Origin: Arthrobacter sp.
Lineage (GTDB): Bacteria > Actinomycetota > Actinomycetes > Actinomycetales > Micrococcaceae
Assembly: GCF_030540645.1 (NCBI RefSeq)
Contig: NZ_JAUNVV010000002.1
Location: 8,132-54,770 of the forward strand
Length of the DNA: 46,639 nucleotides
Direction of reading: 5' to 3'
Of this stretch, positions 2,323 through 18,317 are shown one piece after another (position 1 is the stretch's first letter; every line of letters begins with the position of its first letter). Position numbers and translations under genes: made by a program. Below the pieces are notes generated by a model. That model saw nothing but the letters and a program-made list of their open reading frames with translations, did no database searches and was not told the DNA's origin.

Positions 2323-2337
2323 TGGGTCACAATGGAT

Positions 2338-2367
2338 TTGGCGGATGGGCGCGGCCCGGCATATGGT
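2338..2367 (+). promoter_or_regulatory. Putative promoter of the aroG leader transcript
   Basis: TTGGCG (2338-2343), an 18-bp spacer and TATGGT (2362-2367) form a plausible sigma-70-type promoter. The expected start falls at or next to the leader ATG (2374), which lacks a clear ribosome binding site, so the leader mRNA is probably leaderless. This is inference from consensus only. Confidence 0.45.
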
Positions 2368-2373
2368 GTGGAC

Positions 2374-2433
2374 ATGACAAACCGTTGGTATGCGTATTTT
2401 TCGTTGGCTCTGGAGGGGCCCGCGTCTAACTGA
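2374..2433 (+). CDS. Aromatic leader peptide of aroG
   Basis: A 19-codon ORF, MTNRWYAYFSLALEGPASN, ends with TGA at 2431-2433, 120 nt before aroG. Within five codons it has Trp, Tyr, Tyr and Phe (codons 2386-2400), the three end products of the pathway whose first enzyme is encoded next. Ribosome stalling on a cluster of regulatory codons is the established logic of attenuation leader peptides (trpL, pheL). It overlaps the 5' arm of one alternative stem (2404-2412) and precedes a strong terminator hairpin. The peptide is too short for standard gene callers. I am confident of the assignment; the stalling mechanism is inferred. Confidence 0.8.
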   Translation: MTNRWYAYFSLALEGPASN

Positions 2434-2524
2434 CACGCATCCAATCACCTTCAGAGCCAACAGGACAGGAAATTTATTTCCTGTCCTTCGCCATTTTCAG
2501 GCGGGCTCCGGAAGAGGGGCCCGC
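2404..2524 (+). promoter_or_regulatory. Attenuator of aroG
   Basis: Three structures are visible. (1) TTGGCTCTG (2404-2412) is perfectly complementary to CAGAGCCAA (2452-2460). (2) A terminator hairpin, 2462-2472 with 2477-2487 (arm AGGACAGGAAA, loop TTTA), is followed by a moderately T-rich stretch with TTTT at 2495-2498. (3) GCGGGCTCC (2501-2509) pairs with GGGGCCCGC (2516-2524, one G-U) just before the ribosome binding site. The 11-base GAGGGGCCCGC at 2413-2423 repeats at 2514-2524, so the early copy could compete for 2501-2509. A ribosome stalled on the WYAYF codons would mask 2404-2412. Which fold is the antiterminator remains open. Confidence 0.65.
2462..2499 (+). terminator. Attenuator terminator hairpin before aroG
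   Basis: A perfect 11-bp stem (2462-2472 with 2477-2487) with a TTTA tetraloop is followed by TCGCCATTTTC. It lies between the aromatic leader peptide and aroG, so termination here would stop aroG transcription when aromatic amino acids are plentiful. Confidence 0.65.
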
Positions 2525-2553
2525 TGCCAGCCCCAATATAAGGAATCAATTCC

Positions 2554-3681
2554 ATGAGCATTGCAGCAGCCCCCGAAAGCACAGTAGCGGTTCCGGCATC
2601 CACCACGAACCTGCGTGTCAGCCACTTCACCGAACTGCCGTCGCCTGCCGAGCTGGATGCCACGCTTCCGCTGGACTCCTACACAAGCAACGTCGTCGAA
2701 CGCGGCCGCGACCAGGTCCGGGCCATCATGGACGGGCTGGATGACAGGCTGCTGGTGGTGGTGGGCCCGTGCTCCATCCATGACACCGAGGCTGGGCTGG
2801 AGTACGCCCGTCGCCTGGCTGCAGCCGCGAAGGAGCATGAAGAGGACCTGCTGATCGTGATGCGCGCCTACTTTGAAAAGCCCCGAACCACGGTGGGCTG
2901 GAAGGGCCTGATCAACGACCCCGGCCTTGATGGCAGCCATGACGTGGCCAAGGGGCTGGAAATGGCGCGGAAGTTCCTGCTGGACGTGGCCCGGCTGGGG
3001 CTCCCCACAGGTACTGAATTCCTTGAACCCATCAGCCCGCAGTACACCGCCGACTTGATCTCCTGGGGTGCCATTGGTGCCCGCACCACCGAAAGCCAGA
3101 TCCACCGCCAGCTCTCCTCCGGGCTGTCCATGCCCATCGGGTTCAAGAACGGCACCGACGGGGACCTGCAGATTGCCCTCGATGCATGCAACGCCGCCAG
3201 CGCTCCGCAGTCTTTCTTGGGGATCGACGGCGCCGGACGGGCCTCCCTTGTCAGCACGGCAGGCAACCAGGACACTCACGTGATCCTGCGCGGCGGGCGC
3301 CAGGGCCCCAATTACCATGCCGCGGACGTGGCACAGGCCTCGGACCAGGCGGCCCAAGCCGGCATCAACCCGCGGCTGATCGTTGATGCCAGCCATGCCA
3401 ACTCCGGCAAGAGTCACCATCGCCAGGCTGAGGTTGCGCTGGAAGTGGGCGCCCAGCTGGAGGCCGGGGACGCTTCGGCGCACACCATTGCCGGCGTCAT
3501 GCTGGAGAGCTTCCTGGTGGGCGGTGCGCAGAAACTCGACGTTGACCAGGTGGCTTCCGGAGAAGCCGAGCTGGTGTACGGCCAGAGCGTCACCGATGCC
3601 TGCATGGACTGGGATGTCACGGCTGACGTGCTCGCCAAGCTGGCCGGGGCTTCGCACACACGCCGCAACAGCGGTTCCTGA
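2554..3681 (+). CDS. aroG: 3-deoxy-7-phosphoheptulonate (DAHP) synthase, class I
   Basis: This 375-residue enzyme condenses phosphoenolpyruvate and erythrose 4-phosphate to DAHP, the first step of the shikimate pathway to Trp, Tyr and Phe. Class I (AroAI-alpha) signatures are present: VVVGPCSIHD near residue 70, MRAYFEKPRTTVGWKGLINDP near 110, TGTEFLEPISPQY near 155, IGFKNGTDGD near 195 and VDASHANSGK near 280. Its length equals the family norm of about 350-375. The ATG at 2554 has AGGAA (2541-2545) 8 nt upstream. Regulation is indicated by the upstream WYAYF leader peptide and terminator, implying transcription attenuation by aromatic amino acid supply in addition to the feedback inhibition known for the family. 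AroG, AroF and AroH isozymes cannot be told apart by eye. Confidence 0.93.
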   Translation: MSIAAAPESTVAVPASTTNLRVSHFTELPSPAELDATLPLDSYTSNVVERGRDQVRAIMDGLDDRLLVVVGPCSIHDTEAGLEYARRLAAAAKEHEEDLLIVMRAYFEKPRTTVGWKGLINDPGLDGSHDVAKGLEMARKFLLDVARLGLPTGTEFLEPISPQYTADLISWGAIGARTTESQIHRQLSSGLSMPIGFKNGTDGDLQIALDACNAASAPQSFLGIDGAGRASLVSTAGNQDTHVILRGGRQGPNYHAADVAQASDQAAQAGINPRLIVDASHANSGKSHHRQAEVALEVGAQLEAGDASAHTIAGVMLESFLVGGAQKLDVDQVASGEAELVYGQSVTDACMDWDVTADVLAKLAGASHTRRNSGS

Positions 3682-3737: not shown

Positions 3738-3810
3738 TGAACTTAGGAGCAGAAGGGGGCAACAGCTAAGACAATGGATTTTCACTGGCTAGTGGATACC
3801 GAGGATGGCC

Positions 3811-4047
3811 ATGACGCACGACCAGGATTTTAGCAATGTGAAATTCTTGACAGTTCAGGAAGTCGCTGAACTCATGCGCTTGTCCAAAATGACCGTTTAT
3901 CGGATGGTGCACGCCGGTGAGCTGCCGGCAGTCCGTTTTGGCCGGTCATATCGCGTACCAGCAAACGCCGTCGAAACGTACCTGCGTGCGGCCGTGGTGG
4001 ACAGCACAGCGACGCACGAGGGGCCCAGTTCGGCGCATGCAGGTTAA
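3811..4047 (+). CDS. Excisionase/BldC-like helix-turn-helix DNA-binding protein
   Basis: A 78-residue protein made almost entirely of one MerR-type winged HTH: FLTVQEVAELMRLSKMTVYRMV (about residues 12-33) then HAGELPAVRFGRSYRVPANAVETYL, the wing and recognition pattern of the excisionase/BldC family. BldC-type proteins lack an effector domain and bind DNA cooperatively on direct repeats. The ATG at 3811 is preferred over that at 3805, because GAGG (3801-3804) directly abuts the first but is 6 nt from the second. It sits just upstream of bS22, an arrangement I recall from other actinobacteria, and its own promoter contains a 13-bp palindrome. Target genes cannot be inferred. BldC itself is possible but not certain. 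Confidence 0.85.
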   Translation: MTHDQDFSNVKFLTVQEVAELMRLSKMTVYRMVHAGELPAVRFGRSYRVPANAVETYLRAAVVDSTATHEGPSSAHAG

Positions 4048-4160: not shown

Positions 4161-4259
4161 ATGGGTTCAGTAGTTAAAAAGCGCCGCAAGCGGATGTCTA
4201 AGAAGAAGCACCGCAAGCAGCTGCGCAAGACGCGTCACCAGCGTCGCAATAAGAAGTAA
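4161..4259 (+). CDS. Small ribosomal subunit protein bS22 (AURKAIP1/COX24 domain)
   Basis: This 32-residue, extremely basic protein, beginning MGSVVKKRRKRMSKKKHRK and ending in RNKK, is recognisable as bS22, the tiny 30S protein seen in mycobacterial ribosome structures and annotated elsewhere as an AURKAIP1/COX24 domain protein. Fifteen or more of its residues are Lys or Arg. The ribosome binding site GAGGAA (4150-4155) lies 5 nt before the ATG. A strong terminator follows 20 nt after the stop. It is too short for default gene callers and easily missed. Its neighbour upstream, a BldC-like HTH gene, is a frequent companion in actinobacteria as far as I recall. Confidence 0.93.
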   Translation: MGSVVKKRRKRMSKKKHRKQLRKTRHQRRNKK

Positions 4260-18169: not shown

Positions 18170-18317
18170 GGGCAGAATCAAGAGTTTCGACCACAGGCCC
18201 TGGCCGGTCGAGCGGCAACCCTCGCCACCATAGTGGGGTGCCCCAGGTGAGGATTCGACGCCCCGGCACCCGCCGCCGGCGTAAGTATGGCGCGGCATGC
18301 GCCTTCCCGAACGAAGG
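18170..18317 (+). promoter_or_regulatory. SAM riboswitch (SAM-I/SAM-IV type) controlling osmC
   Basis: The aptamer core CGGCAACCCTC (18213-18223) and GGGGTGCCCCAGGTGA (18235-18250) matches the SAM-I/SAM-IV superfamily, closest in my memory to actinobacterial SAM-IV. P1 is GAATC (18175-18179) with GATTC (18252-18256). P2 is TCGACC (18187-18192) with GGTCGA (18206-18211). A further stem is CCAC (18225-18228) with GTGG (18233-18236). The expression platform is also visible: CCTTC (18302-18306) pairs with the osmC ribosome binding site GAAGG (18313-18317), while GGCGC (18289-18293) with GCGCC (18299-18303) would compete for 18302-18303. This suggests translational control. The subclass needs a covariance search. 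Confidence 0.82.

Follow-up and report, generated by a model that had tools for sequence, protein, structure and literature searches.

A probable leaderless leader-peptide attenuator in front of a class I DAHP synthase gene of Arthrobacter

Introduction

In Corynebacterium glutamicum, the aroR attenuator (Neshat et al., 2014) precedes aroF, a class I DAHP synthase (DAHPS) gene, according to the available portions of four sources (PMC11802643, PMC7356990, PMC11525245, PMC4046766). The aroR leader carries Phe-Tyr-Phe, and in the accessible text of PMC11802643 and PMC4046766 it is Phe limitation that induces expression, with no effect of Tyr; Phe-dependent expression is likewise reported for aroR in PMC11802643. 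The level at which aroR acts differs between sources, since PMC7356990, in the portion available, terms it translational. Leaders for other amino acids have been described in related organisms, as far as the accessible sections of the respective papers go. The trpL, leuL and ilvL leaders of Streptomyces lividans are short ORFs with control codons, several of them leaderless and several without a U-rich terminator (PMC8079986), the ilvB-II motif of Corynebacterium contains a short ORF with control codons (PMC10272879), and the C. diphtheriae ilvB leader is reported to be leaderless (PMC5784534). The accessible text of PMC1262725 gives no conserved structures before genes of pathways outside its list, and we found no leader of the type described below in print outside Corynebacterium among open-access papers.

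Here, we analysed a stretch of 46,639 nucleotides from Arthrobacter sp. (contig NZ_JAUNVV010000002.1, positions 8,132 to 54,770; hereafter the window), in which a short ORF rich in aromatic codons stands 120 nt 5' of a class I DAHPS gene. We are highly confident that this element is an aromatic-tRNA attenuator of that gene, and it is likely to be a leaderless attenuator that is mediated by a ribosome on the leader peptide ORF.

Materials and methods

The named-record sample comprised 80 of 579 DAHPS loci, and the family labels of these loci are our own, based on record titles. In the final set family labels are partly our own assignments, and the 78 Micrococcaceae (f1) loci include the window. 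From L082 onwards the ORF-picking script favoured a TANNNT motif upstream, which leaves the figure for the 80 loci picked blind to the promoter unaffected. The Corynebacterium locus L080 was omitted from the early set and entered later as L219, and the starts of three box-less Corynebacterium loci (L223, L224 and L228) were set two codons late. A leader ORF was found in 182 loci. Outside this set, with no leader by script, are L136 and L137 (the other DAHPS genes of genome G283), the f4 loci L138-L150, the 22 f35 loci, and L171, L180, L190, L191, L197, L198, L232 and L233; the duplicates L163, L205 and L206 were also excluded from it. Loci L124, L125 and L181, with uncertain starts, were removed before 58 representatives were taken, and L104 and L125 before the 32-sequence alignment A1, on which the covariance model R1 was built. 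For the analysis of hairpin T, which was looked for only 0-7 nt 3' of segment 2, the 58 representatives were reduced to 53 by leaving out, where included, L194, L195, L200, L208, L209 and L196 (bad parsing or no T).

Results

The leader ORF has 19 codons (Table 1), and it carries Trp, Tyr, Tyr and Phe within five of them, as the first-pass annotation had pointed out. This places a short ORF with end-product codons in front of a biosynthetic gene, as in an attenuator. The position of the -10 box, 6 nt 5' of the leader ATG, leads us to expect a transcription start at or adjoining the ATG. A TANNNT motif lies 6-7 nt 5' of the leader start in 80/80 loci in which the ORF was picked blind to the promoter, and 6-8 nt 5' of it in 179/182 leaders, for which the choice of ORF was partly guided by the box; the chance rate of TANNNT at the leader spacing is 0.6-0.7%. 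Furthermore, an SD-like sequence precedes only 2/182 leaders, compared with 160/182 DAHPS genes. Taken together, the placement of the box and the missing Shine-Dalgarno (SD) sequence indicate that the transcript very probably begins at the first base of the leader, and the leader mRNA would then very probably be leaderless with its 5' end at the ATG, much as had been supposed when the ORF was first noticed.

Table 1. Positions of the predicted elements of the leader region and of the downstream gene within the window.
Feature	Position	Strand	Remark
-35-like TTTGGCG	2337..2343	+	TTTG at -45..-27 in 64/80 loci
-10 box TATGGT	2362..2367	+	6 nt 5' of leader ATG
Leader ORF MTNRWYAYFSLALEGPASN	2374..2433	+	no Shine-Dalgarno in front
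Control codons TGG TAT GCG TAT TTT (W5 Y6 A7 Y8 F9)	2386..2400	+	TAT/TTT dominant in leaders
Segment 1 (5' strand of P1, within ORF)	2403..2416	+	covariation; swap test p 8e-11
Segment 1d GAGGGGCCCGC (first repeat copy)	2413..2423	+	2415-2423 complementary to segment 3
Segment 2 (3' strand of P1)	2448..2461	+	2450-2458 may alternatively pair with segment 3
Hairpin T (11 bp, loop TTTA)	2462..2487	+	arms 2462-2472/2477-2487; no linker to P1
Tail CGCC	2489..2492	+	can pair with GGCG 2500-2503; weak, swap p 0.08
Segment 3 GGCGGGCTCCGGA	2500..2512	+	partner is segment 4, or segment 2 plus tail
Segment 4 GGGGCCCGC	2516..2524	+	3' arm of hairpin 3:4; inside second repeat copy 2514-2524
Shine-Dalgarno AAGGA of DAHPS gene	2540..2544	+	sequence
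Class I (AroFGH-type) DAHP synthase, presumed regulated gene	2554..3681	+	PF00793 288 bits; TIGR00034 473 bits

Codon use differs sharply between the leaders and the genes behind them. The Micrococcaceae leaders (n=78) contain TAT and TAC in a ratio of 156:0 and TTT and TTC in a ratio of 79:0, and the leaders of the 58 representatives contain 71 TAT to 4 TAC and 65 TTT to 19 TTC, counts that are non-independent as they come from related leaders; among the L002-L081 loci that were used, the DAHPS genes have 1 TAT to 366 TAC and 15 TTT to 527 TTC. The f19 leaders are an exception to the TTT preference (7 TTC, 5 TTT). We take this reversal as a sign of selection on decoding, with selection against local structure as the alternative. 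Among the 182 leaders, whose loci were picked for having one, W, Y and F all occur within the first 14 residues in 158, in an order that differs among leaders (WYAYF, WFTYA, WYWRF, RYPYF, RFYF).

The ORF and its codons are conserved in close relatives, as they should be if the first reading of the locus was right: the peptide is identical to that of the window in 48 of the 78 Micrococcaceae loci of the final set. Among the 80 named loci (of 579), an element of the window type was recognized by script or by eye in all but L080, a Corynebacterium locus whose leader has a different form (MSVQRFYF...). At the level of the order, the class I DAHPS gene is present in 75/297 genomes and R1 matched in 55/297, a figure from a search with stricter filters, in which weak matches were lost, and from genomes that supplied some of the A1 sequences, which match by construction. 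Each of these matches lies within about 150 nt 5' of a class I DAHPS match. The 55 genomes are the 75 gene-bearing ones minus 19 of f4 and one weak match (G257), and an aromatic leader before the class I DAHPS gene, the mark of the aroR group, was found in 55/55 non-f4 gene-bearing genomes. Except for a reverse-strand echo in G038, no genome gave more than one R1 match; in the genome of the window, the single R1 element was accompanied only by a weak match to its reverse strand (E 0.17).

At the level of the class, the gene is present in 79/394 genomes, and a scan of 66 loci gave 38 leaders in which six codons include three or more for W, Y or F, 3 of which repeat genomes already counted. In three loci (L171, L190 and L191), a TANNNT box accompanies a short ORF whose two aromatic codons are adjacent, a form that falls below the threshold of the script. 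Within the genus Corynebacterium, the gene occurs in 15/61 genomes and the script found a leader in 13/15 loci; L232 has a YY leader that was found by eye, and neither script nor eye detected one in L233. No leader was accepted in the 13 f4 loci, 5 of which have a threshold-passing ORF that we set aside by judgement; the only one of these with a box, in L145, overlaps the gene's own start region. Related leaders occur in Corynebacterium and in other actinobacterial families.

No leader was accepted in the 22 f35 loci either, although 3 of them contain an ORF that passes the threshold but has no box and that we likewise set aside by judgement. In 12 of these 22 loci, a short frame with the conserved end E-(F/Y)-W-E-E-D-L-P-G-L was observed (e.g. 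L161, L164 and L173), about 220-360 nt 5' of the DAHPS gene, and 9 of the 12 have TAAGAT 7 nt before the GTG. This frame may represent a leader, or it may be the end of some other gene.

The DAHPS protein of the window passes the TIGR00034 (aroFGH) and PRK12755 models and falls below the cut-offs of the AroG- and AroH-specific ones, so the name aroG used in the first-pass annotation is only a label; by family, we take its counterpart to be C. glutamicum aroF. A class II DAHPS is encoded on another contig of the same genome (G000:C24:21060-22352), and only one leader element was found in that genome. The earlier idea that a single attenuator would sense the complete pathway is therefore not supported. 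A class II DAHPS was present in 70 of the 73 genomes examined, two of which (G161 and G653) share their coordinates and probably represent a single assembly, and we rejected the notion that Trp in the leader goes with the lack of a second DAHPS. The three misses are the 3 f4 genomes examined; f4 genomes (e.g. G020, G152 and G237) usually carry two class I DAHPS genes, often adjoining. Genome G283 has three class I DAHPS genes (L135, L136 and L137), one alone of which has an aromatic leader.

Several other observations were made on the way. Just 3' of the DAHPS gene, 3805-4047 encodes an 80-aa HTH_17 protein (PF12728) that is either excisionase-like or BldC-like, and a 32-codon ORF at 4161-4259 (MGSVVKKRRKRMSKKKHRKQLRKTRHQRRNKK) matches COX24_C (PF08213) and presumably encodes bS22, a small actinobacterial ribosomal protein. 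The sole Rfam match of the window at the gathering threshold is a SAM-IV riboswitch at 18176-18293 (77 bits). Locus L005, titled Sporosarcina beigongshangi (a Bacillota name), contains an Arthrobacter-like DAHPS locus with 90% identity, and its record is probably mislabelled or mixed.

The RNA from 2374 to 2556 folds with -80.7 kcal/mol, while 200 dinucleotide-shuffled versions gave -51.5 +/- 4.3 (z -6.7; 0/200 as good), and the Rfam models found nothing at E <= 1 within 2280-2620. The 9-bp complementarity noted at first sight (2404-2412 with 2452-2460) is the core of a longer helix, P1, in which segments 1 and 2 form 14 bp with one G-U. In alignment A1 (32 sequences, five families), 95.0% of P1 cells are paired and 26 cells show double changes, a result that 0/500 shuffles matched; hairpin T has 89.4% of cells paired and 34 double-change cells, again with 0/500 shuffles as high. 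The covariation scores of P1 and T were likewise reached by 0/500 shuffles each. The compensatory changes that were expected of real stems are thus present in both. Lesser measures gave weaker results, since 79/500 shuffles reached the number of T pairs with two-sided changes and 46/500 the further pair types of P1. In addition, native segments 1 and 2 match each other better than swapped ones do (p 8e-11, n=58). P1 is therefore a conserved, covarying stem that overlaps the ORF, as in an attenuator. In the window, it begins 2 nt 3' of the final aromatic codon, and in 47/58 representatives this gap measures 2-5 nt.

Hairpin T follows P1 with a linker of 0 nt in 34/53 representatives and of 0-1 nt in 44/53. 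It had been proposed as a terminator hairpin, and the perfect 11-bp hairpin is there; its role as a regulated terminator did not hold up, as the U-tract behind it is poor and no conserved partner was found. The terminator scan called no site across 2462-2524, and four tests detected no conserved pairing of either P1 strand with the arms of T (p 0.47-0.83), on which ground we rejected T as a terminator that is switched through pairing with a P1 strand. No switched intrinsic terminator with a U-tract was found in this leader region; the Corynebacterium loci do have the U-tract. There, T comes right after segment 2 with a U-rich tail (mean of 5.8 U in 9 nt, n=13), and together with the abutment of P1 and T this would suit a model in which T terminates and P1 modulates it by abutment, with no competing antiterminator. 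We regard this model as unlikely, since the tail in Micrococcaceae has a mean of 4.0 U in 9 nt and that of the window reads UCGCCAUUUUC; moreover, a stem is not known to modulate a terminator by abutting it. Three loci (L194, L195 and L200) apparently have no T, and by eye their segments 2 and 3 form a direct hairpin (CGAGCCGG/CCGGCTCG).

Downstream of T, segments 3 and 4 form hairpin 3:4 (2501-2509/2516-2524), with no U-tract behind it in the window sequence. In A1, 89.6% of its cells are paired with 5 double changes, and 5/500 shuffles reached its score. Pairing 2:3 (80.9% paired) shows no covariation in the 32 sequences, as 283/500 shuffles were as high for paired cells and 447/500 for score; in the swap test it gave a modest signal (p 0.003, n=45) that fails in f22. 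Pairing of the tail with segment 3 was not significant in the swap test (p 0.08, n=45). The 11-base direct repeat reported earlier (GAGGGGCCCGC) was confirmed, and the proposal that its first copy competes for the last hairpin is partly supported: 1d:3 reaches a score matched by 0/500 shuffles with 81.7% of cells paired, and all 9 pairs can form in 7/10 Micrococcaceae rows (8 in L061 and L094, 6 in L089), while four f13 rows keep only 3-4 of the 9.

Control could also act mainly on translation, with segment 4 or 3 pairing with the SD region in one fold only. Matches of the GGGTCC/GGACCC type between segment 4 and the SD region occur in several families (L062, L105 and L186), and in L013 segment 3 is directly complementary to the SD region. 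However, the swap test for segment 4 with the SD region is weak (p 0.035, n=45), native pairs being worse than swapped ones in f22, f53 and f58, and the window has no match between segment 4 and its SD region, which is 69-70% open in all six modelled states. Over the 58 representatives, the openness of the ribosome-binding region at the first stall minus that at the stop codon has a mean of 0.03 (up in 27, down in 19; p 0.12) and hence shows no consistent change. The SD region of L013 is more open with a ribosome at the stop codon (0.24) than at the stalls (0.09), a result that counts against the mechanism that we propose below. With a weak swap test and steady openness, sequestration of the SD region by segment 4 was rejected as a general rule, and we consider mainly translational control improbable.

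To follow P1 during translation, we modelled a ribosome whose cover on the RNA ends 11 nt beyond the first base in the P site, with all RNA 5' of its front unpaired. In the window, the probability of P1 was 1.00, 1.00, 0.89 and 0.68 with the ribosome stalled at W5, Y6, Y8 and F9, and the best fold lost 0, 0, 1 and 4 of the 14 P1 pairs, respectively. With the ribosome at the stop codon, pairing of segment 2 with the downstream region (2:3 around T) rose to 0.64. Among the 58 representatives, P1 had a probability of at least 0.6 in 48 at the first aromatic stall, in only 39 at the last-codon stall and in 0 at the stop codon, where the masking rule overstates opening. Segment 2 paired with the downstream region at 0.3 or more in 48/58 at the stop codon, a position at which the rule hides one base more than at the stalls and, as elsewhere, ignores refolding behind the ribosome. 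Ribosome-free window RNA retains P1, so the run-through state depends on a ribosome that stays close to the stop codon.

The same rule was applied to E. coli trpL, in which stalls at the first and second Trp codons reduce 1:2 from 15 to 7 and 4 pairs. The procedure kept the trpL terminator in every state and did not yield the known 2:3 antiterminator; the folds are therefore no proof of direction, and trpL serves as a yardstick of geometry only. For this reason we put forward only tentatively, on the basis of the modelled folds, the direction in which a stall preserves P1.

The classical trp-type scheme is the best-known mechanism, and the chain of 1:2, 2:3 and 3:4 shares its topology. It would have a stalled ribosome mask segment 1 and thereby allow 2:3, and in the absence of a stall P1 together with 3:4 (or T) would shut the gene. 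A ribosome stalled at F9 does overlap the beginning of segment 1; for L008, the model of this stall leaves P1 at 0.23 and segment 2 with the downstream region at 0.43. On the other hand, the control codons lie 5' of segment 1 rather than inside it (the gap of 2-5 nt noted above), a stall at W5 or Y6 leaves P1 of the window whole, unlike in trpL, and 3:4 lacks a U-tract. We thus see this scheme as a possible reading that is open to considerable doubt.

The near-invariant peptide of the Micrococcaceae might instead suggest an arrest peptide whose nascent chain detects free aromatic amino acids. However, the order of the aromatic residues differs between families, and P1 accounts for the conservation of the C-terminal part. 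Furthermore, two frame-shifted leaders, L083 and L113 (one base more and two fewer than their relatives, respectively; a 1-nt insertion in L083), keep the stem RNA and a stop codon near the usual place, and their peptide is altered after the control codons, so that the C-terminal peptide is lost. On account of these frame-shifted leaders, an arrest peptide was rejected, and we consider it extremely improbable.

Conservation, promoter placement, codon bias and the P1, T and 3:4 structures were found by computation; that the ribosome stalls, which way the folds switch and whether termination or translation is affected are matters of inference. In the mechanism that we propose, transcription would start at the leader ATG and a ribosome would load at once. 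When charged tRNA-Trp, -Tyr or -Phe is scarce, the ribosome would stall at codons 5-9 and, since only 2 nt separate the final aromatic codon from P1, would spare all or most of this stem; T could then stack on P1, and 3:4 would form. When all three tRNAs are charged, the ribosome would proceed, open P1 and rest near the stop codon, which would free segment 2 for pairing with segment 3 around T. That starvation is the expressed state is assumed from the likeness to the reported C. glutamicum aroR.

Discussion

Our working proposal, which we offer with reservation, is a phase-shifted attenuator across actinobacteria, in which the control codons lie just 5' of the first stem, a starved ribosome protects that stem and free translation destroys it. 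Such a reading would invert the trp logic and turn one short leader into an OR gate that reads three tRNAs, with the aid of TAT and TTT codons that the regulated genes shun. If true, a leaderless three-tRNA element governs one entry enzyme of the aromatic pathway in many actinobacteria. The geometry of the element offers a clean test of whether a ribosome protects or masks the first stem, and for the engineering of aromatic compounds it provides a defined element to change in hosts other than Corynebacterium.

Like E. coli trpL, the window has a leader ORF that contains control codons, a stem that spans the end of this ORF and, by prediction, alternative hairpins further downstream. In trpL, which has an SD sequence, the first Trp codon marks the start of the stem and the terminator is followed by a U8 tract, whereas here the control codons lie 5' of the stem and a comparable tract was not seen. 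The S. lividans, Corynebacterium and C. diphtheriae leaders mentioned in the Introduction serve other amino acids and other genes than the element of the window.

The closest likeness is to C. glutamicum aroR, with the same downstream gene family and an aromatic leader peptide. Neshat et al. in 2014 reportedly described these attenuators as leaderless. The loci of the genus Corynebacterium show the same order of parts, an RFYF leader followed by P1 and an abutting T, and TANNNT precedes the leader in 10/13 of them, the other 3 having the box before the next upstream ATG. The family counterpart of the window DAHPS in C. glutamicum is aroF, as given in the available portions of PMC4046766 and PMC11802643. 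The two systems differ in that the window leader carries W, Y and F and that of C. glutamicum, which responds to Phe, carries F-Y-F; in addition, T has a poorer U-tract here, and segments 3 and 4 follow it. On the strength of the shared gene, the leader type and the order of P1 and T in the sequence, we group the element with the C. glutamicum aroR attenuator, as a variant of it.
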